Below are positions 25,574 to 37,300 of a stretch of DNA of 37,439 nucleotides, in pieces. Within the stretch, counting starts at the first letter, position 1, and the number at the start of each line of letters is the position of its first letter. The translations under genes were made by a program, and so were the position numbers. Location: positions 1 to 37,439 of the forward strand of contig NZ_LNUV01000003.1 in the NCBI RefSeq assembly GCF_001512285.1, given 5' to 3'. Source of the DNA: Arthrobacter sp. EpRS71 (lineage in GTDB: Bacteria > Actinomycetota > Actinomycetes > Actinomycetales > Micrococcaceae). A model generated the notes under the pieces. The model did not search any database. It was not told the DNA's origin and was given only the letters and a program-made list of their open reading frames with translations.

Positions 25574-26069
25574 GCCTTGCGCTTCCCAAGGGCGAACAGG
25601 TTCAGGTGAAACCAAATCGCTGAGATAACCCGCAAAGGTGATACGCGCCCGCGGCGCGCCTACGCTGCTCATGACGTCGTTTGGGCTCGGAGATGTATCC
25701 CAATAGCACTTGCTTGGAGGTATTGTCCCGCCCGCATGGTGCCGCGGGGATTTGAGGCTGGCTTCTGACAGCGTGGGAGTAATGCTGAATATGCCGGGTT
25801 ACCTCGTTGCATAGGGGCCGGGGTGCCGTCACTGGGAGCCTAGTTAGGCCGTCCGATCCGTGGAAGGGGATTGGCGACAGCAGACCATCGGGAGTTCTCG
25901 GAGGTGCTGATGCTCACTATTTGCAAGTGGTGCTAGGAAATCGGCGTTCGGTGGGTGGTTCCATAGGCATTTTCCAGTACTAGGGGGCGGATACCTTTGA
26001 ATCTACGTGTCGGGAGATCGCCGCTACGGGCTGGGCCGGACTTCATTGCGACGAGGTCTTGAAGTGGAA
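25574..26069. other. Gene-free stretch before the defence island
   Basis: I see no frame with coding character and no recognisable RNA gene. A 76-codon reverse frame (25602-25832) is rich in Arg, His and Gln and has the look of chance. Several CTAG tetranucleotides occur (near 25850, 25932 and 25981). The left edge of the island is probably in or just after this stretch. Confidence 0.5.
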
Positions 26070-26239
26070 CACCTAGACGAGCCTAGCGATCACTCACATG
26101 TCGGCTGTTCACCTCCTAATTTGGGTCGTCTCGCCACCTAGATCGGCTGCTTCTGCCCGTGCATGCAGCCCCGGGGTGCACTCTGGACTGGTCAATGCAA
26201 AGGCGTTCTTTACGAGGAGTAGTTATGATCCTGCTGGAC
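26070..26239 (+). repeat. Duplicated promoter/leader region, copy B
   Basis: Gap-free counterpart of 22621-22790 (about 65% identity). CACCTAG at 26070 and 26135, with CTCCTAA at 26113, keep the offsets of copy A (0, 43, 65), and CTAG recurs at 26073 and 26083. CGTTCTTTACGAGGAG and ATGATCCTG close the match. In copy B the downstream gene is different: a 47-codon ORF leading into the methyltransferase gene. It is therefore the likely promoter region of the methyltransferase. Confidence 0.75.
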
Positions 26240-26368
26240 AACTTAGGGGTCTCCCACATGGGCCAAGTTCTCACCGCGATATGTGACGTCGGCTGGCCTT
26301 CTCATTTGGCGCCAGTTCGATGCGCGGTTCCCGGCCAGGACTTGGTAACCTGGTCAGACTATGAGTGA
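26225..26368 (+). CDS. 47-residue leader ORF overlapping the methyltransferase start
   Basis: The ATG at 26225 has an excellent ribosome-binding site (CGAGGAG) and corresponds to the start of the secreted-protein gene of copy A, sharing its first three codons. After that the sequences part: no signal peptide is left, and the peptide (MILLDNLGVSHMGQ onward) matches nothing I know. The TGA at 26366-26368 lies 3 bp past the methyltransferase ATG (26361), which has no ribosome-binding site of its own. The ORF therefore looks like a translated leader that delivers ribosomes to the methyltransferase gene. Confidence 0.5.
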   Translation: MILLDNLGVSHMGQVLTAICDVGWPSHLAPVRCAVPGQDLVTWSDYE

Positions 26369-27911
26369 CGAAATCCGGGGAGCAATGCGAACCCCCATCC
26401 CAGTGATAGACCTGTTTGCCGGTCCTGGAGGTCTCAACGAAGGATTCTCCAGCATGGGTGAGGAAGACGGCGACCCGATCTTTCAAACAGTTGGATCCTT
26501 CGAGATGGAGCCGAACGCAGTTGCAACGCTGACGCTTCGATCGGTCTTCAGGCACCTCAAGCGAAACGGTGGGGTGCCGGAGTCGTACTACAAGTACATT
26601 TCGGGGTCGAAGTCTTGGGAGGACTTTAAGGAAGAGCCTAGAGTTGCCGCTGCTCTTGAGGTTGCGACGGCCCATGTTCACGAGATTGAACTTAGTGAGG
26701 CAACTCGCGAGGATGTCGCGCAAAAGATTAAGGGTGCACTGGCAGCTGCATCCAATAACTCTGACGGAGACTGGGTACTTATCGGGGGGCCGCCCTGCCA
26801 AGCCTACTCACTTGCAGGACGGTCCCGTCGGACGAATGACAAGCAATTTGCCTTCGATAAAAAACACTTCCTCTATGAAGAATATCTAGACATCATCAAG
26901 CAATTTGCCCCTGCTCTCTTTGTGATGGAAAACGTGAAAGGCTTGCTCTCCTCTACCAATCATGGCGTCGGAATGTTTGGCCAGATTCTGCACGATCTGC
27001 AACATCCGAGTTCTTCCCTGACGTACGAAGTCCGTTCACTTGTAATCGATAGGAAGAGCGGAACTCTCTCTCCGAAAGACTTCGTGATCCCCGCAGAAGA
27101 TTATGGCATTCCACAGAAACGTCACCGTGTCATTCTGTTAGGAGTCAGATCAGACGTTGTCGAGAGAACCAACCGCGCCGTCCTAGAACCGAGTTCTAGA
27201 GTTACGGTCAAAGATGCCATTGCAGATCTGCCGTTCCTGCGTTCAAAGATCTCGCCGAAGCGTCATGACAGCCAAGAGAATTGGGACACCCTTCGGAAAC
27301 GTGCTCTCGGCCGTCGCGATCAGCGTTCTGCTGAAGTCGCGTCTGCATCGGCTGATTCGGGCCCGGACCAAGTGGGGCAGCAGGTGCAGGAAGATGGCCG
27401 CCGCGCTGCTGTTATTAGATATCGAAAGTGGATTGAAGACGATGCTTTGGTGTCGCCGCTGCAGCATGAGTCCCGTAGCCATATGGAATCGGATATTGAG
27501 CGTTACGCACACCTTGCGTGGAAGGCCGAGGAACTGGGTAAGAGCCCCAAGTTCGCGGACCTGCCTGAAGGCCTTGAGCCCAACCACAAGAACATCGGCG
27601 GAGACAACACACCGTTCCTGGATCGATTCCGGGTTCAGGTGTGGAACGAACCATCGACGACGATCGTCTCGCACATATCCAAAGATGGGCACTACTATAT
27701 TCATCCAGACGAGTGCCAGATGCGAAGCTTGACGGTGCGCGAAGCTGCAAGGCTGCAGACGTTTCCCGATAACTATTTCTTCGAAGGCTCGCGGACAATG
27801 CAGTTCCATCAAGTCGGAAACGCGGTCCCACCACTCTTGGCCAGGCTCATAGCAGAGAAGGTGGTCGAAACCCTGCGTCTCGATGGAACTGAGGATGTGA
27901 GCGAAGACTAG
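26361..27911 (+). CDS. C5-cytosine DNA methyltransferase
   Basis: 516 residues. The ordered C5-methyltransferase motifs are present: motif I DLFAGPGGLNEGF (17-29), motif IV GGPPCQAYSLAGR with catalytic Cys146, motif VI ENVKG (190-194), motif VIII PQKRHRVILLG (251-261), and motif X HQVGNAVPPLLA near the end. A long insert between motifs I and IV (about residues 50-135) is unusual; the target-recognition region lies between VIII and IX. It transfers a methyl group from S-adenosylmethionine to cytosine in an unknown site and should protect host DNA from the convergent operon. An ATG at 26385 is an alternative start, but its GGGGAG lies only 2 bp away. Its TAG interlocks with the stop of the convergent AIPR gene. 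Confidence 0.93.
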   Translation: MSDEIRGAMRTPIPVIDLFAGPGGLNEGFSSMGEEDGDPIFQTVGSFEMEPNAVATLTLRSVFRHLKRNGGVPESYYKYISGSKSWEDFKEEPRVAAALEVATAHVHEIELSEATREDVAQKIKGALAAASNNSDGDWVLIGGPPCQAYSLAGRSRRTNDKQFAFDKKHFLYEEYLDIIKQFAPALFVMENVKGLLSSTNHGVGMFGQILHDLQHPSSSLTYEVRSLVIDRKSGTLSPKDFVIPAEDYGIPQKRHRVILLGVRSDVVERTNRAVLEPSSRVTVKDAIADLPFLRSKISPKRHDSQENWDTLRKRALGRRDQRSAEVASASADSGPDQVGQQVQEDGRRAAVIRYRKWIEDDALVSPLQHESRSHMESDIERYAHLAWKAEELGKSPKFADLPEGLEPNHKNIGGDNTPFLDRFRVQVWNEPSTTIVSHISKDGHYYIHPDECQMRSLTVREAARLQTFPDNYFFEGSRTMQFHQVGNAVPPLLARLIAEKVVETLRLDGTEDVSED

Positions 27912-29977
27912 AAGTCCGAGAATCCTCTCTCTCTTGCTTTGTGTAGGGTCGCGACAAGGCGGACGCTTTGACGCACTGATGGGAATCCGTTCTTACGGCC
28001 GGTTACCAAATCGAGGATGCCAATATCCGTTGGCCCCGCGACGCGATTGGCGATGGCGAACGTGCGCAGGCTCTCCCACTCCGCCTTGGTGGTCGACAAG
28101 ACTTGCGTCTGTATGTCAATGCCGTTGTCTATCTTCTGAGTAGCCTTGGATGTGGTCTTGGCCTCCGCTCGGACGGACGAATCGATGAGCTCCTTCGTGA
28201 AGCTCTCTGGCAAATCGAATGGCGCGGCTCTCACTGTCTCCCAGCATGTCGCCGACTTGGCCCATTCGGTTACGTTCGCGACGCGGCGAGTCGGTGACGT
28301 GAGGGAGCCGGCCACGAGTTTTCCGACTGAGAGCGCAGTCGTCGTCATGGCCTCGGTCAACGTTTGTTGCTGCCAAATTGCCGCGAAGTTGAGGTGCTTT
28401 CCGGGGGCCTGCCTGCCAATTTCGAAGGCCAACTTTGCCATCGTGTATGTGACGATATTCGCCAAATAGCCCTTGTCGTACCAGTCTGCCTTGGCAACAG
28501 AACGTCGGATTTCCTCGTACATGATCGCTTTGGCGACGAGGTCCCGGAAATACTGTTCGTTGATTTCTTCGTTGGAAGTCTCCCATATCCTAGCGATACC
28601 TTCGGCGAAAGCCACAAAGTTCTTTTGTGCACCGGCACTAACGACATATGGTTTTTGATCCCATGAAACCGCATACTTTGCCGCGTCTGTCTTGGTGAAA
28701 ACCTGGCTTCGCGGATAGGTGGCCGCAAACTTGGTCGCATCGGTAGCGGAGAGCTTGTTTTTTTCGTTGAGGTACTGGCCGCGGGTCCGCTCGTAATACC
28801 ACTTAGTGTGGTAGTTGACGCCAGGGCGAGCAGGGACGAGCAACCTTCGCGAGAGCTCTTCTAGCCGAATATGGAACGGGCTATTTGAGAAGAAGTCTGC
28901 CTCGCTGACGCGGTTCTGGCTGTTGGCGAAGCGCGAGATCTTTGGAACGAGGTCAACGGCCTTCTCTGGGTCTACGACCACGAGTTTCATCGGCACGAAC
29001 ACGTCACTGAGTACCGAGTCTTTGGCGTTTTCCCTCGCCACGTAGAACAGCGAAGCAGTGGTCTGTCCACCGTTCACAATCTGGAGGTCAACGAGGGACG
29101 TTGCTCTGAGCCCATCCGAAGTCCGCGTTAGGCCCGTGGCGGTGGCGGTGATGCCGTTGTTGTACGCCATGAACATCTCAGGTTCGGACAGAATTGTCGT
29201 CTTGATACCCTTATTGACCTTGCCCCGCCCGCTTAGAAAAGATCGGACGTTCCCTTCGAGAAGTCTGCTTCCGTACTGCGCATACAGGTCGGCAACGAGG
29301 GCGCCGGGGACGGCAGCCATATACGTAGCGAAATCCGTCGAATCACCGCTAATTTCTAGTATTGGCAGCCCCTCCGGTACCCACTTCGTCAAGTTGATCT
29401 CGAGGGCTTCACGGCCTTGTTGGGACTCCTGAACTTGGTGGAGTCTTTGCAGGTCCCAGAGGTGGAAATCTACGGGGACCCCGTTAAGAGTCGACGATGG
29501 GACTCCCTTGATACGGTCGCTGAGTCGGCCATTGGTGACGAGGTAAAGACGGTAACGCGAGACCGCTCGTCCCCGGTGGTGGAGGTCTGTTGCGAGCTGA
29601 TATGCGGCTGAGCTTTCTTCTCTGCCAGCCGTGAAGTGTCCGGAAACTGCTTCCGATAGAAAGTTCTCGAGTGCTGACAGACGTTTTTTGGCGTCGGTAG
29701 CAGTGACCACGTCGATGGAGTCGGAGTTCGAGTGCAGAAGAACGGCGAGTGAGACCGATTCGTCGGCATCGTCCAGATCGTACGCGTTGACGGCAAGCTT
29801 TTTGTTGCGTTGACCAGACCCTTCAAACTGTATCACCGTAAAGTCTTCAACTTCACCGGCTTCGGCGAAGCGTTCCGACACCTCTGCCATGAAGGCCATA
29901 GAGGTGTAGTCGTTATCGACTGCTGCGCGCGCGTTGACCGTGTTCTGCAGGTCCAAGTAGAAATCATCAAGATTCAT
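27908..29977 (-). CDS. AIPR-family protein (abortive-infection phage resistance)
   Basis: 689 residues. The conserved AIPR core is visible at NNGITATATGL (273 onward) and IVNGGQTTASLFY (300 onward), followed by PKISRFANSQNRVSEADFF. The N-terminal ~150 residues, with the pattern FEGSGQRNKKLAVNAYDLDD, could hold a restriction-like nuclease fold, which is inference. AIPR proteins are known from abortive-infection loci and from Z1-type restriction operons; their biochemical role is not settled. It is the last gene of a four-gene operon: its start overlaps the DUF4420 gene by 11 bp. Third-position GC is well below that of the host genes. Confidence 0.88.
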   Translation of the reverse strand: MNLDDFYLDLQNTVNARAAVDNDYTSMAFMAEVSERFAEAGEVEDFTVIQFEGSGQRNKKLAVNAYDLDDADESVSLAVLLHSNSDSIDVVTATDAKKRLSALENFLSEAVSGHFTAGREESSAAYQLATDLHHRGRAVSRYRLYLVTNGRLSDRIKGVPSSTLNGVPVDFHLWDLQRLHQVQESQQGREALEINLTKWVPEGLPILEISGDSTDFATYMAAVPGALVADLYAQYGSRLLEGNVRSFLSGRGKVNKGIKTTILSEPEMFMAYNNGITATATGLTRTSDGLRATSLVDLQIVNGGQTTASLFYVARENAKDSVLSDVFVPMKLVVVDPEKAVDLVPKISRFANSQNRVSEADFFSNSPFHIRLEELSRRLLVPARPGVNYHTKWYYERTRGQYLNEKNKLSATDATKFAATYPRSQVFTKTDAAKYAVSWDQKPYVVSAGAQKNFVAFAEGIARIWETSNEEINEQYFRDLVAKAIMYEEIRRSVAKADWYDKGYLANIVTYTMAKLAFEIGRQAPGKHLNFAAIWQQQTLTEAMTTTALSVGKLVAGSLTSPTRRVANVTEWAKSATCWETVRAAPFDLPESFTKELIDSSVRAEAKTTSKATQKIDNGIDIQTQVLSTTKAEWESLRTFAIANRVAGPTDIGILDLVTGRKNGFPSVRQSVRLVATLHKARERGFSDF

Positions 29978-30974
29978 TCGACGAAACCTTCAGTTCTGCT
30001 GTAGGTAGCCCCAGCTGTGAAAAATCGCATTCAAAGGGCGCTAGATCCGCCAGATCCAGGGAGTAGGAGACGCGGTTGACGCCTGCTGGAAGCATGCGGG
30101 GCTCGATCCGCGGAAAGGACTCAGCTACTTCCAGATATCGAACGCCTGTCGGCAGGAAGTGCATGTCGGCGTAGACGTCGTCGGTTCGATCGAAACGGAG
30201 TTCGGCGAGACGGTTCACAAGTTCAGACTGCGCAACGCCAGCATCTTGCAGAAGTCGGTCCGTTCGGTCGAGGAGCGCAGGAATCGTCAGCGCCCCTGGG
30301 GTCTCTGTCATGGCGTCATCAGCGGCCACGACGCAGACGAAGAGGCGCTCATCCGGCAGGCGATTGAGCTGGTTTTCCGAGGAAATCTGAATGCGTCGAG
30401 CGTGACTGTGAACAGTTTTCACCTCAATCAACGGCCCGCCAGGGAACTGAAAGTCTTGGTCACTTTGGAACGGCCCACGCCAGGCATCCATTACGTGGCG
30501 GATGGAGCAATCTGGCACTAGGTTCGAGAAGCCGACCCAAAGTTCGCCGAAAAGGCCCCGCGCAGCTTCCAAAGAGAGCCGCTGACTCGCCGGAGCCTGA
30601 AGGAGGGTCCGCCACTCCTCAACACTGGCAATGAAGGCTGCAAGCCCTTGGGCTTCAGAGCTGGTCTCGGAGACACGATCCACGATATGCGCGCAGAGCT
30701 GGACGAAGACGTCTGTAAATCTGGGCGCCTTGAGCGTAAGCAGGAGTACCCAATGGCCGTCAATGCTTCTCTGAGTGCGTGTCACATCAACGGCATCTGA
30801 CAGCTCCGGAATAGCCGGCTTGAGGCTGCTGATGGAACAGAACATCGGTTGTCCAGCTTGGTCAGTGCCACAGACGAGGCGAAGATCGAGATCCGGATCG
30901 ACTTCAAGTGTTCTGGGAAGCCGTTGCTCGATGGCGCTCAACCATGTGGCTTCGATGGGATTAGACATCGTCAT
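29967..30974 (-). CDS. PD-(D/E)XK motif protein (DUF4420)
   Basis: 335 residues. The stretch LEAARGLFGELW (about 135-146), then AWRGPFQSDQDFQF and PLIEVKTVH gives the restriction-endonuclease core: Glu144, Asp174, Glu184 and Lys186 in the order E, D, ExK. This is the DUF4420 family, seen mostly in operons with Z1 proteins. It is the best candidate for the DNA-cleaving subunit of the system. Overlaps of 14 bp with the Z1 gene and 11 bp with the AIPR gene mean co-translation and probably a fixed stoichiometry. Confidence 0.9.
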   Translation of the reverse strand: MTMSNPIEATWLSAIEQRLPRTLEVDPDLDLRLVCGTDQAGQPMFCSISSLKPAIPELSDAVDVTRTQRSIDGHWVLLLTLKAPRFTDVFVQLCAHIVDRVSETSSEAQGLAAFIASVEEWRTLLQAPASQRLSLEAARGLFGELWVGFSNLVPDCSIRHVMDAWRGPFQSDQDFQFPGGPLIEVKTVHSHARRIQISSENQLNRLPDERLFVCVVAADDAMTETPGALTIPALLDRTDRLLQDAGVAQSELVNRLAELRFDRTDDVYADMHFLPTGVRYLEVAESFPRIEPRMLPAGVNRVSYSLDLADLAPFECDFSQLGLPTAELKVSSNES

Positions 30975-33732
30975 CCTCGTCAGTGCCGGAGTACTCTACG
31001 AACCACTGTTGCTGAGCGACAGTGTTGATGAGGTAGCGAACGTCGCCGTCGCGGTTGTTGACGTCGAGGCGGTTCCCCGGAAACGCCAGCTTGATGCCAA
31101 CGATTTGCTCTTGTTCAATGTTCGCGACTTTTTTACGATCCTTTTCTGGCAATTCCTTGAAGTTAGGCACCAGAACATAGACAAGCAAGGTTGGCCTCGG
31201 AAGGTGCTCGTAGATTGCTGATTCTGGGACTTGCTTTCCCGGGTACTCCTGCTTGAAGCCTTCGGTAAGAGAGTCATCGGTGGCGGTGTCGAGTATTTTT
31301 CTGAGGTCGTCGCTACCTGCCAGCCTGCTACTTTTTCCTGACACGAGCAGTTCGTCAGCGGCTCCGACGGTCATAGTTCGGGTCGGTGGATGGATCTTCA
31401 CACCGCCAAACGTTTCTTCGGAATCGGCCGTCTTTGTACCGTTGACGAAGACTACATCCCACTTCGAGAACTTGGCCGTCTTGTTGTTCTTCACAAACTT
31501 GCTGATGGCGTTGCCGTAGAACAGTTCGTCCATCCTGTGTGCTGTGTATTCGTCAAGGAAGGCGGCGACCAAGCTTTGCGGGACGTCAGTGAAACGCGGG
31601 TAGCCACGTTGGGTTTGACCGGGCCGGCCAAACGTTCCGACGAGTGCCTCAGCCAGAGCGATGGCAGCATCCCTGTTTTCCTTTATGGTCGTTTTTCTCG
31701 GGTCGAGCCGTGAGGTTTCAATGCGCCGCCCGATAAGGCTGATGACCTTAGGCTCCACTGCGGCCGACTTGGACTTATTTTTTGCCGTGATCAGAAGTGC
31801 TCCAGGATGCATGCGGATAGACAGCCCGAAATCCAGGGGGGTCAATGACTGGCGCTGCATGAGTTTCAGATCCGAACGTAGTTCAGCTACAGCGTCAGCG
31901 ATAAACCGGTAATCAGCTGCGACTCCAGGATCGATCCAGATGCGGCAGAGGTCTTCGTATTCGTCCCGATAACCGAACCAACGAGCCATCTGCATCATGG
32001 TGTCGGCTGCACGGACGTTTCGGTAGTAGTAACTCACCATGAGGCCTTCGAGGGTGAGGCCGCGGCTGAGCACGTCGCCACCGATGGCGATGACGCGCTT
32101 TGGCATTTCAGCGCTTTGCTGCTGTTCCTTCAGGAGCTTTTCGGTGTCCGAGTTGAATGTCCTGACAGTAATTTCGTTGGCTGAGCTCGGGAGCGCAGCC
32201 AAGACTTCCGACCACGTAGGCCCAGCAGCGGAGTAGAACGTTTCGAAGGTTGACTTCAGACCATCGATAATGTGGTTTTCGACGCCCTCTGTGTAGAGGA
32301 TGGCGTGGGCTTCGAGTGCATTCTTGATGTTATCGAGTTCATGCTTCACCAAGTCGTGCAAGTGCATCTGAACTCGCTTGAAACGAGAAACGTTGATGAG
32401 CATCGAGCGGCGTTTGTCTTCGTGGCCTCGAAGATCACGAATGGCGTTCGCTACAACATAGACGCGGATGGCAGTCTTTAGGCTGTCAGGGATGGCGTGG
32501 ATGGCATGGTACTGCTTGTGCTTGAGCGGCAGTAATGGCTCGACGTCGTGGAGATCTATGACGCTCACTTCATTGATGTCGTCCTCGGTCCCAAAGACCT
32601 TATCGGCTCCCACATAGTTTGTGGGAGCCTCCAACCCGTAGACGAAGTCCTTCGGAAACAGGTCGGGGTGAACTTCGCCGTCCTTGACAGTCTCGGCCTC
32701 GTGGTCGATGAGGATATTGGCGAACGGAGTCGCCGTAATGGCGACATATGAGTTCCGAGAAAACTTTCCTAGGAGCTTACGAATTAGGAAGTTCGTCTTG
32801 GTCGGATCGTCTTCCTTGCCGGTGTTTACCGAGCCGTAGTCTGATTCGTCGTCGACGAGCAAGAGAGGCAGATCGATCCGGCCATGAGACTTTGGCTGGT
32901 CGTTCGTCCAGTCAATGAGCGCTTTTAGGACATGGACGTTCTTCTTGACGACGAAGATGAACGGGTTGGGCGATTCCTCGGACACGCTGATGCTGGTGGC
33001 ATCCTTACTGGCTTGCAGAAAGTCCTGGACAACTGTCGTCATTCCGGTTGCGTACGTCAATTGTTTGTTCAGCCGGCCGACTCCAACAAACCTATCGGCG
33101 GCGGTTCCCGTTCCTGACCTAGAAACGTTTCGGCTTGAATCTTTGCCCAGAAATCCTTCGTCAACACGAATCTGTGTTTGCTGCCTCAGGGACTCCGTAT
33201 TGCCAGCCAAAAGTACGACCAAGCGGTAGCCCGCGTCGGCTGCCTTGTTGAGCAGACCCAAGTACGTTTGCGTTTTGCCTGACTGCACGTCACCGATGAT
33301 TAGGCCTTTTCGGTCCCAAGGTCCAAGCAGCGTCGGGTCTCCGACGTAGTCGAGGATTTCGTCAGTGAATTCCTCCATCTTTTCGAGGACTCTTGGAGAA
33401 CGATTGTTGTTACGTAGCCATTGCTTGTAGGTGAGCCACCGAGTCCATTCGATGTGATGCTTTTTTGTCGCGAGCCAAGGCTTGAAATCCTTGTCGGTGA
33501 TTCCGACACCGATCTCGACGTCGATACTCAATTTGCTCACAAGCCGTCGGTGAACTGCTGTGATGTCGTTGTCAGAGACGTCGGGAGCTACGACAGGGCG
33601 GAAATTTTCCAGCTGGTCGTGTAGGTGAGACTCGCTGTATGTGTCATCGCTGAGCAGAGCGCTCACCACGGTCTCAAGTTTTTCCATCTGAGAGCGGATG
33701 ACACTGGGGTCGGTGGCGGCATGGCTAGTCAT
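30961..33732 (-). CDS. Z1-domain P-loop NTPase
   Basis: 923 residues. The Walker A motif GDVQSGKT lies at 147-154 with Lys153, and LLLVDDESDYGS near 290 is the Walker B (DDE) segment of a helicase-like ATPase. The Z1 domain follows in the central half: RVIAIGGDVLSRGLTLEGL and YYYRNVRAADTMMQMARWFG correspond to late helicase motifs with the Arg-finger region. Z1 proteins are proposed to move along or remodel DNA for associated nucleases. It starts 8 bp inside the end of the GHKL ATPase gene and ends 14 bp inside the DUF4420 gene. It is the motor of the proposed complex. Confidence 0.92.
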   Translation of the reverse strand: MTSHAATDPSVIRSQMEKLETVVSALLSDDTYSESHLHDQLENFRPVVAPDVSDNDITAVHRRLVSKLSIDVEIGVGITDKDFKPWLATKKHHIEWTRWLTYKQWLRNNNRSPRVLEKMEEFTDEILDYVGDPTLLGPWDRKGLIIGDVQSGKTQTYLGLLNKAADAGYRLVVLLAGNTESLRQQTQIRVDEGFLGKDSSRNVSRSGTGTAADRFVGVGRLNKQLTYATGMTTVVQDFLQASKDATSISVSEESPNPFIFVVKKNVHVLKALIDWTNDQPKSHGRIDLPLLLVDDESDYGSVNTGKEDDPTKTNFLIRKLLGKFSRNSYVAITATPFANILIDHEAETVKDGEVHPDLFPKDFVYGLEAPTNYVGADKVFGTEDDINEVSVIDLHDVEPLLPLKHKQYHAIHAIPDSLKTAIRVYVVANAIRDLRGHEDKRRSMLINVSRFKRVQMHLHDLVKHELDNIKNALEAHAILYTEGVENHIIDGLKSTFETFYSAAGPTWSEVLAALPSSANEITVRTFNSDTEKLLKEQQQSAEMPKRVIAIGGDVLSRGLTLEGLMVSYYYRNVRAADTMMQMARWFGYRDEYEDLCRIWIDPGVAADYRFIADAVAELRSDLKLMQRQSLTPLDFGLSIRMHPGALLITAKNKSKSAAVEPKVISLIGRRIETSRLDPRKTTIKENRDAAIALAEALVGTFGRPGQTQRGYPRFTDVPQSLVAAFLDEYTAHRMDELFYGNAISKFVKNNKTAKFSKWDVVFVNGTKTADSEETFGGVKIHPPTRTMTVGAADELLVSGKSSRLAGSDDLRKILDTATDDSLTEGFKQEYPGKQVPESAIYEHLPRPTLLVYVLVPNFKELPEKDRKKVANIEQEQIVGIKLAFPGNRLDVNNRDGDVRYLINTVAQQQWFVEYSGTDEDDDV

Positions 33733-35188
33733 TTACGACCTTCCAAAGTAGTTCTGCAGGGGCGGATGCGAGAGCGAAGGGTTCAATCGAAGCCATAGCT
33801 GAGACAAACTGCTCCGAGTCACCTCCGCTTGCTTTGTGTGCTTTCCAAAGGGCCGAGGCCAAGCCTTCGAGTTCTGGAGCGGACGGCTGAAGTGGTGAGT
33901 GGCTCTCGTCTTGGCCGAGTCTGTTGTACGCGTCCTCAACTGGGAAGGTCGATTCCAGAAGCGAAAGCACCGCCGACAGTTGCTTCACATCGTTGGGACT
34001 CATCTGCTCGGCCAAAATTTCCAAAGCTGGGTGCTGCCGATTGATCTCATATCTGAAGGTGCCCCGATCATCGACTACGTTCCACACGGGACTCGTACGG
34101 GACTGTTCTTGGACGATGCGGCCACGGTAGAGGTGGACACGTTTGCTCGGCTCTACGATGCGCCCCGCGATCCGGCGAAGATTGTCCCGAATCTGCGGTG
34201 GTGGGGCTGCTGAAGCCTTCTTAATGTCCAAAGACCACAAGTGATCCAATGTGTTCGGGATATCGACTTTGACTCTGGCGAGTTTCCCTAGATCGTCCTT
34301 GGGTGCTATGCGGAACCAAGTACCCCAAATGACCAACCGCTTGCCACGATAGATATAGAAGCCCTGGCTGTCCCTGACCCGGCCTGCGACTTGAGCCCGC
34401 TTCTTTTCTGCGGTCGTCATCAGGTTTAGATGCGGCAGCGTGTACGGCTGGACGTCAATTCGTTCCCCGTCGACGGAGAAGGACTCGGATGGGCCGAGTT
34501 GGGTCGCCTTGTTGGACTCCAGGAAGGGATCGGAGCCTTGTACAGGTGTGCGGTTCAGCGAGATACCGAAGCGCAGACCGTGTTCGCCTGCAAGAAATCT
34601 ATGGAATACAAGTGCTAAGTGGCTTTTGACATCCATCATGGCTGCATCGAACGATGAGCTGAGATCTCCAACGGTCGCTTCGAGCCGGTCAAGGTTCCGC
34701 CAAATGACGAGCGTCCCCGAAGTGAGCCCGGCGAGTTCGTTGAATCGGGGGAGCTCCTGCAATTCATCTTCAGCTAGGACGAGGAGGCTCCAGGATTGCT
34801 GTTCGATCATGTGATCGATGTTCCATTCGAAGCCGCACAGGACGCCGTCGTGCTTCGAAACGAGTACCAAGTCTCGGCACTGCGACAACGACGCCGTCTT
34901 CAGTCCGAGTCCAAAGCGTCCCAAGTCCTTCGGATTTCTCGACTTCATCGGGCTGGCACCCGCTAGGCGCATCGCTTTGATGGCATCCTCAGCCGTCATT
35001 CCCTTGCCATCGTCGACTAAAGCGACGTACGGATCAGGCTGATCGCCGAAGAATATGTCGACGTTGGTGGCCTCGGCGGATATCGAGTTGTCTATGAGGT
35101 CAGCAACGGCTGTCTGAAGTGTGTAGCCGACGGCGCGCATGGACTCCATGAGATGCGGATCCGGCGGAAGGATTTGCTCGGTTGTCAC
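33725..35188 (-). CDS. GHKL ATPase, MORC/MutL-like
   Basis: 487 residues from the GTG at 35188 (GGGGGG in front); a TTG ten codons earlier (35218) is possible. The Bergerat fold is clear: N-box TAVADLIDNSISAEA with Asp33/Asn34, G1 box VDDGKGM at 58-64, and G2 box GRFGLGLKTAS at 90-100. Order and spacing match the MORC/MutL group rather than histidine kinases. It should bind and hydrolyse ATP, with dimerisation acting as a clamp on DNA. It is the first gene of the operon, overlapping the Z1 gene by 8 bp. Eukaryotic MORC proteins have been traced to such bacterial operons. Confidence 0.92.
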   Translation of the reverse strand: MTTEQILPPDPHLMESMRAVGYTLQTAVADLIDNSISAEATNVDIFFGDQPDPYVALVDDGKGMTAEDAIKAMRLAGASPMKSRNPKDLGRFGLGLKTASLSQCRDLVLVSKHDGVLCGFEWNIDHMIEQQSWSLLVLAEDELQELPRFNELAGLTSGTLVIWRNLDRLEATVGDLSSSFDAAMMDVKSHLALVFHRFLAGEHGLRFGISLNRTPVQGSDPFLESNKATQLGPSESFSVDGERIDVQPYTLPHLNLMTTAEKKRAQVAGRVRDSQGFYIYRGKRLVIWGTWFRIAPKDDLGKLARVKVDIPNTLDHLWSLDIKKASAAPPPQIRDNLRRIAGRIVEPSKRVHLYRGRIVQEQSRTSPVWNVVDDRGTFRYEINRQHPALEILAEQMSPNDVKQLSAVLSLLESTFPVEDAYNRLGQDESHSPLQPSAPELEGLASALWKAHKASGGDSEQFVSAMASIEPFALASAPAELLWKVVND

Positions 35189-35297
35189 TGACCCCCCAGT
35201 TGTAGTTCGTGCCGTCAACGTTGCCCAGCACTTTGGATACTAGCTGGCAGCAACGGCAAAGTATGTTTTATCAGTCTCCTGGGGACCGGGCCGGTCA

Positions 35298-35490
35298 TCA
35301 GTCGTCGAGCAGGGACGGCTGAATATAGGGTGCTACTGGGCTTCGAGTACCGTTGGTCCGGGTGGTGAGCGATCGAAATTTGGCCAAATTGTCCACTACT
35401 GATTGGGCCAGATCGAGTATCTCTGAAGGTTTGGGCATTTGCAGGGAATCGTCCTCTTGGGAGCGTTTCTTCTGAGTGCGGAATTGATGT
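35298..35490 (-). pseudogene. 3' end of a truncated gene at the island boundary
   Basis: A reverse frame runs open from inside the monooxygenase gene end down to the TGA at 35300-35298. An internal ATG at 35438 would give 46 residues (MPKPSEILDLAQSVVDN onward, ending QPSLLDD) but has no ribosome-binding site. Base composition is that of the island. I read it as the C-terminal end of a gene that once stood first in the defence operon and was cut when the island joined the monooxygenase gene. The promoter of the operon should lie in or after it (35219-35300), where I see no strong consensus. Confidence 0.45.
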
Positions 35491-36735: not shown

Positions 36736-36939
36736 GGGTGCACTTTACGCCTGGCAGTGCTTACAGAACAGGCAGCAGCGGAGTGGGATCCGGGACCTGG
36801 TCAGAGCCGCTTCGTCTCGTGAAATCGGCCGTCCAGAAACATCCGATAGATAAATGTTCCCCAGCACTAGCCATATGCTCAAATCTCTGTAGACTAGTTG
36901 GTGTTGTTGTGTTTGGCATTTGGTAGTTCAGGCAGTCCC

Positions 36940-37041
36940 CACGATCTTTCCGGATCGTGACTTTCTGAAGTAACTGTGGAGAACACCCCACACCCGGAGA
37001 CCCGAAAGTCGGGACAATCTCCACCTTCAGTAAGGACTGAA
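36940..37041 (+). promoter_or_regulatory. Structured 5' leader of cspA
   Basis: Three hairpins stand in the leader: CACGATC-tttccg-GATCGTG (36940-36959), GGAGA/TCTCC enclosing CCCGA-aag-TCGGG (36996-37022), and TTCAGT-AAGG-ACTGAA (37026-37041). The last hides the ribosome-binding site AAGG in its loop. CTGAAG at 36965-36970 is complementary to CTTCAG at 37025-37030, so an alternative long-range pairing would open that hairpin. This resembles the temperature-responsive leaders of cold-shock genes. Confidence 0.55.
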
Positions 37042-37044
37042 AAA

Positions 37045-37248
37045 ATGGCTACAGGTACCGTAAAATGGTTCAACTCCGAAAAGGGCTTCGGCTTCATCTC
37101 TCCTGAAGATGGCAGCCAGGACGTTTTCGCTCACTACTCTGCGATCAACTCCTCGGGTTACCGCTCCCTCGAAGAGAACCAGAAGGTTTCCTTCGACGTC
37201 GAGCAGGGCCCCAAGGGTCCCCAGGCTGTAAACATCCAGGCTGTCTAG
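37045..37248 (+). CDS. cspA: Cold-shock protein CspA
   Basis: 67 residues, the standard length. The RNA-binding motifs RNP1 (KGFGFI, 15-20) and RNP2 (VFAHY, 27-31) are present after the typical start TGTVKWFN. It is an RNA chaperone that melts secondary structure at low temperature. The start is the ATG at 37045 following AAGGA; the longer frame upstream is the untranslated leader. A long structured leader and a strong terminator make it a single-gene transcript. Confidence 0.97.
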
Positions 37249-37262
37249 TCTTCGGATAACGC

Positions 37263-37300
37263 AAAAAGCAGGGCCGGTCACTGACCGGCCCTGCTTTTTT
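37263..37300 (+). terminator. Rho-independent terminator of cspA
   Basis: AAAAAGCAGGGCCGGTCA followed, after one base, by its exact complement and a T-run: a near-perfect hairpin of up to 16 bp with a small loop, 14 bp after the cspA stop. The A-run on the other side makes it work in both directions, for the reverse-strand gene ending at 37350 too. Confidence 0.92.

Follow-up and report, generated by a model that had tools for sequence, protein, structure and literature searches.

The MZA phage-defense system is reportedly owed to Gao and colleagues in 2020, and is represented in NCBIfam by models NF041931-NF041935 (mzaABCDE). The available portion of Miller et al. 2022 (PMC9523054) refers to a "validated mzaABCDE system," and also describes a putative "Type II" system, with an additional AIPR and MORC-family association, whose anti-phage activity is said there to require further investigation. 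A five-gene locus in Arthrobacter sp. EpRS71 (contig NZ_LNUV01000003.1, positions 1 to 37,439; this whole stretch of 37,439 nt is the window below) appears, from the relationship of four of its genes to MZA genes, to be a methyltransferase-linked sister of MZA phage defense. It is likely an ATP-powered restriction system directed against DNA without the host methyl mark, which would be cut.

The locus compared with described systems

Four genes on the reverse strand, overlapping by 8, 14, and 11 bp, encode homologs of MzaB, MzaC, MzaD, and MzaE in the same order as in the E. coli operon: a GHKL, MORC-type ATPase (MzaB-like, 497 aa; 33725..35218), an MzaC homolog, the Z1 gene of the original prediction (30961..33732), a DUF4420 predicted PD-(D/E)XK nuclease (MzaD-like, 335 aa; 29967..30974), and an AIPR protein (MzaE-like, 689 aa; 27908..29977). 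Facing them on the forward strand is a gene for a C5 cytosine DNA methyltransferase (516 aa; 26361..27911). This arrangement was described in the original prediction, made from the DNA alone, and the domain calls and operon reading given there were borne out; the homologs strongly co-occur, a check that it had proposed. The ATPase matches HATPase_c_3 in Pfam at 1.4e-32, and MORC2 is its top match among solved structures (8.9e-8). All four proteins score below the NCBIfam equivalog cut-offs (bits against cut-off: MzaB 292.4/850, MzaC 458/1500, MzaD 98/420, MzaE 358/1050), and the locus has no MzaA sigma-70-like gene upstream of mzaB. The operon is real and probably functional in defense, and its type is already described. 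The prediction was right that the families are known, but it gave only a computational restriction-modification (R-M) description; among named systems, MZA comes closest.

Comparison with the putative type II system, whose AIPR and MORC-family associations the locus shares, revealed no gene-content difference; the section on it, as far as available, is silent on the AIPR active site, fusion, and methyltransferase exchange. The MORC/paraMORC operons of Iyer et al. 2008 (PMC2292703) have in common with the locus a GHKL ATPase, a superfamily II (SFII) helicase with a DThhQxuRhFG motif, and a restriction endonuclease (RE)-fold protein, as well as DNA methylases, Vsr, and AIPR, although the accessible text groups many operon types and does not describe AIPR as a nuclease that has degenerated. 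CglI and NgoAVII, as described in the available parts of PMC4267653 and PMC5737866, are three-gene systems without a GHKL ATPase or AIPR, and the nuclease of CglI is a PLD-B3 protein; neither PLD nor B3 appeared at E ≤ 0.1 in any of the five Pfam scans of the locus. The literature searched, outside of which most subscription papers lie, yielded no study of how MZA or this gene set works mechanistically. The main value of the comparison is that it gives roles to the parts, and makes the way in which MZA and its sisters work directly testable.

The methyltransferase and its link to the operon

The methyltransferase (Pfam DNA_methylase, 1.9e-46; best PADLOC model DrmMII, 4.3e-104) has intact PCQ and ENV motifs, which are kept in 75 of 76 aligned copies. 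A C5 methyltransferase is found at 76 of the 81 loci of the clade, and in the other five the contig ends no more than 1.4 kb from the operon on one side or more. Such enzymes are rare in the 4.85-Mb genome itself, where a search for C5 enzymes only gave matches at two places, the window and G000:C6:272664-274148. The proposed link to the operon is borne out.

The operon might instead be a methylation-independent phage sensor and nuclease, which may also hold for MZA in E. coli, and the methyltransferase would then be a neighbor with another job. This is possible, if rather unlikely. Around E. coli mzaABCDE, annotation shows no methyltransferase over 5.2 kb ahead of mzaA or 5.4 kb beyond mzaE. 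Among loci, the methyltransferase differs freely in where it sits, in its strand, and in its subfamily. In Thalassospira and Neorhizobium, the cytosine methyltransferase close to the MZA operon is accompanied by an annotated restriction endonuclease of its own. Against this alternative stand the near-constant presence and genomic rarity of the enzyme, and a DNA_methylase match in E. coli among the controls; E. coli has an unlinked C5 enzyme, Dcm.

The E. coli flanks also weigh against restriction by methyl mark, as do the lack of a Vsr gene in the window itself (relatives have Vsr neighbors) and the swapping of methyltransferase subfamilies for one another without a corresponding domain exchange in the operon, because of which no specificity subunit was identified. 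Because the methyltransferase is exchangeable and absent from the flanks inspected around the annotated E. coli operon, the mark-and-cut coupling first proposed is plausible only.

Two nuclease-like proteins

The ability to cut is predicted for just one of the two nuclease-like proteins. In the DUF4420 protein E144, D174, E184, and K186 are intact, and the D...ExK residues (D174, E184, K186) are conserved in 82 of 82 sequences. In the AIPR protein, residues 1-189 are predicted to form a PD-(D/E)XK nuclease fold without catalytic residues, followed by the AIPR core. The window's protein keeps none of the three catalytic residues (N64, L81, S83), the lysine is absent in 78 of 80 homologs, and the full triad occurs in one of the 80; MzaE of E. 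coli, Thalassospira, Neorhizobium, and genome G543 likewise lacks it. The idea of AIPR as a second effector is unsupported on these grounds, and an active AIPR nuclease acting in abortive infection is improbable. It would fit the family name, the similarity to AbiU, and the predicted fold, and acids at two of the catalytic positions are often retained in relatives (D64 in 67/80; D, E, or Q at position 81 in 59/80).

This retention counts against a single active nuclease, as does a lysine near the AIPR site in 5 of 80 homologs under a looser register. Some PD-(D/E)XK enzymes lack the lysine, so its loss alone is no proof of inactivity. For DUF4420, VIA scores of 5.4-7.5 with root-mean-square deviations up to 9.6 fall in the tool's "possibly unspecific" range, and Foldseek gave no match at E ≤ 0.001 for either model. 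Another AIPR gene of the same genome (G000:C4:362013-362801) keeps the catalytic QxK.

Distribution and genomic setting

The operon occurs in seven of 199 genomes searched, its own included; some relatives are plasmid-borne, and the five-gene region has a GC content of 0.552, vs. 0.604 for the whole window. That the locus serves DNA repair or replication control instead of defense is very improbable. The similarity of the GHKL protein to MutL and MORC2 and the Vsr neighbors of relatives speak for it; the sparse presence, the relatives on plasmids, the low GC content, a chromosomal interval holding defense-type genes in related genomes, and homology to MZA proteins speak against it. That interval, between an EamA transporter gene and a flavoprotein gene (25574..35490; L138-L147), is an apparent defense hotspot: it holds MZA-type genes here, while related genomes have SRA-HNH, NaeI R-M, BREX, or DndH-like genes there.

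In E. coli strain G1/2 (L203 5888-8730), mzaB is seemingly broken by an IS4-like element, according to annotation. Farther along the window, a cspA thermoregulator RNA (Rfam RF01766, 88.5 bits; 36902-37297) lies over a likely cold-shock protein frame (36976-37248).
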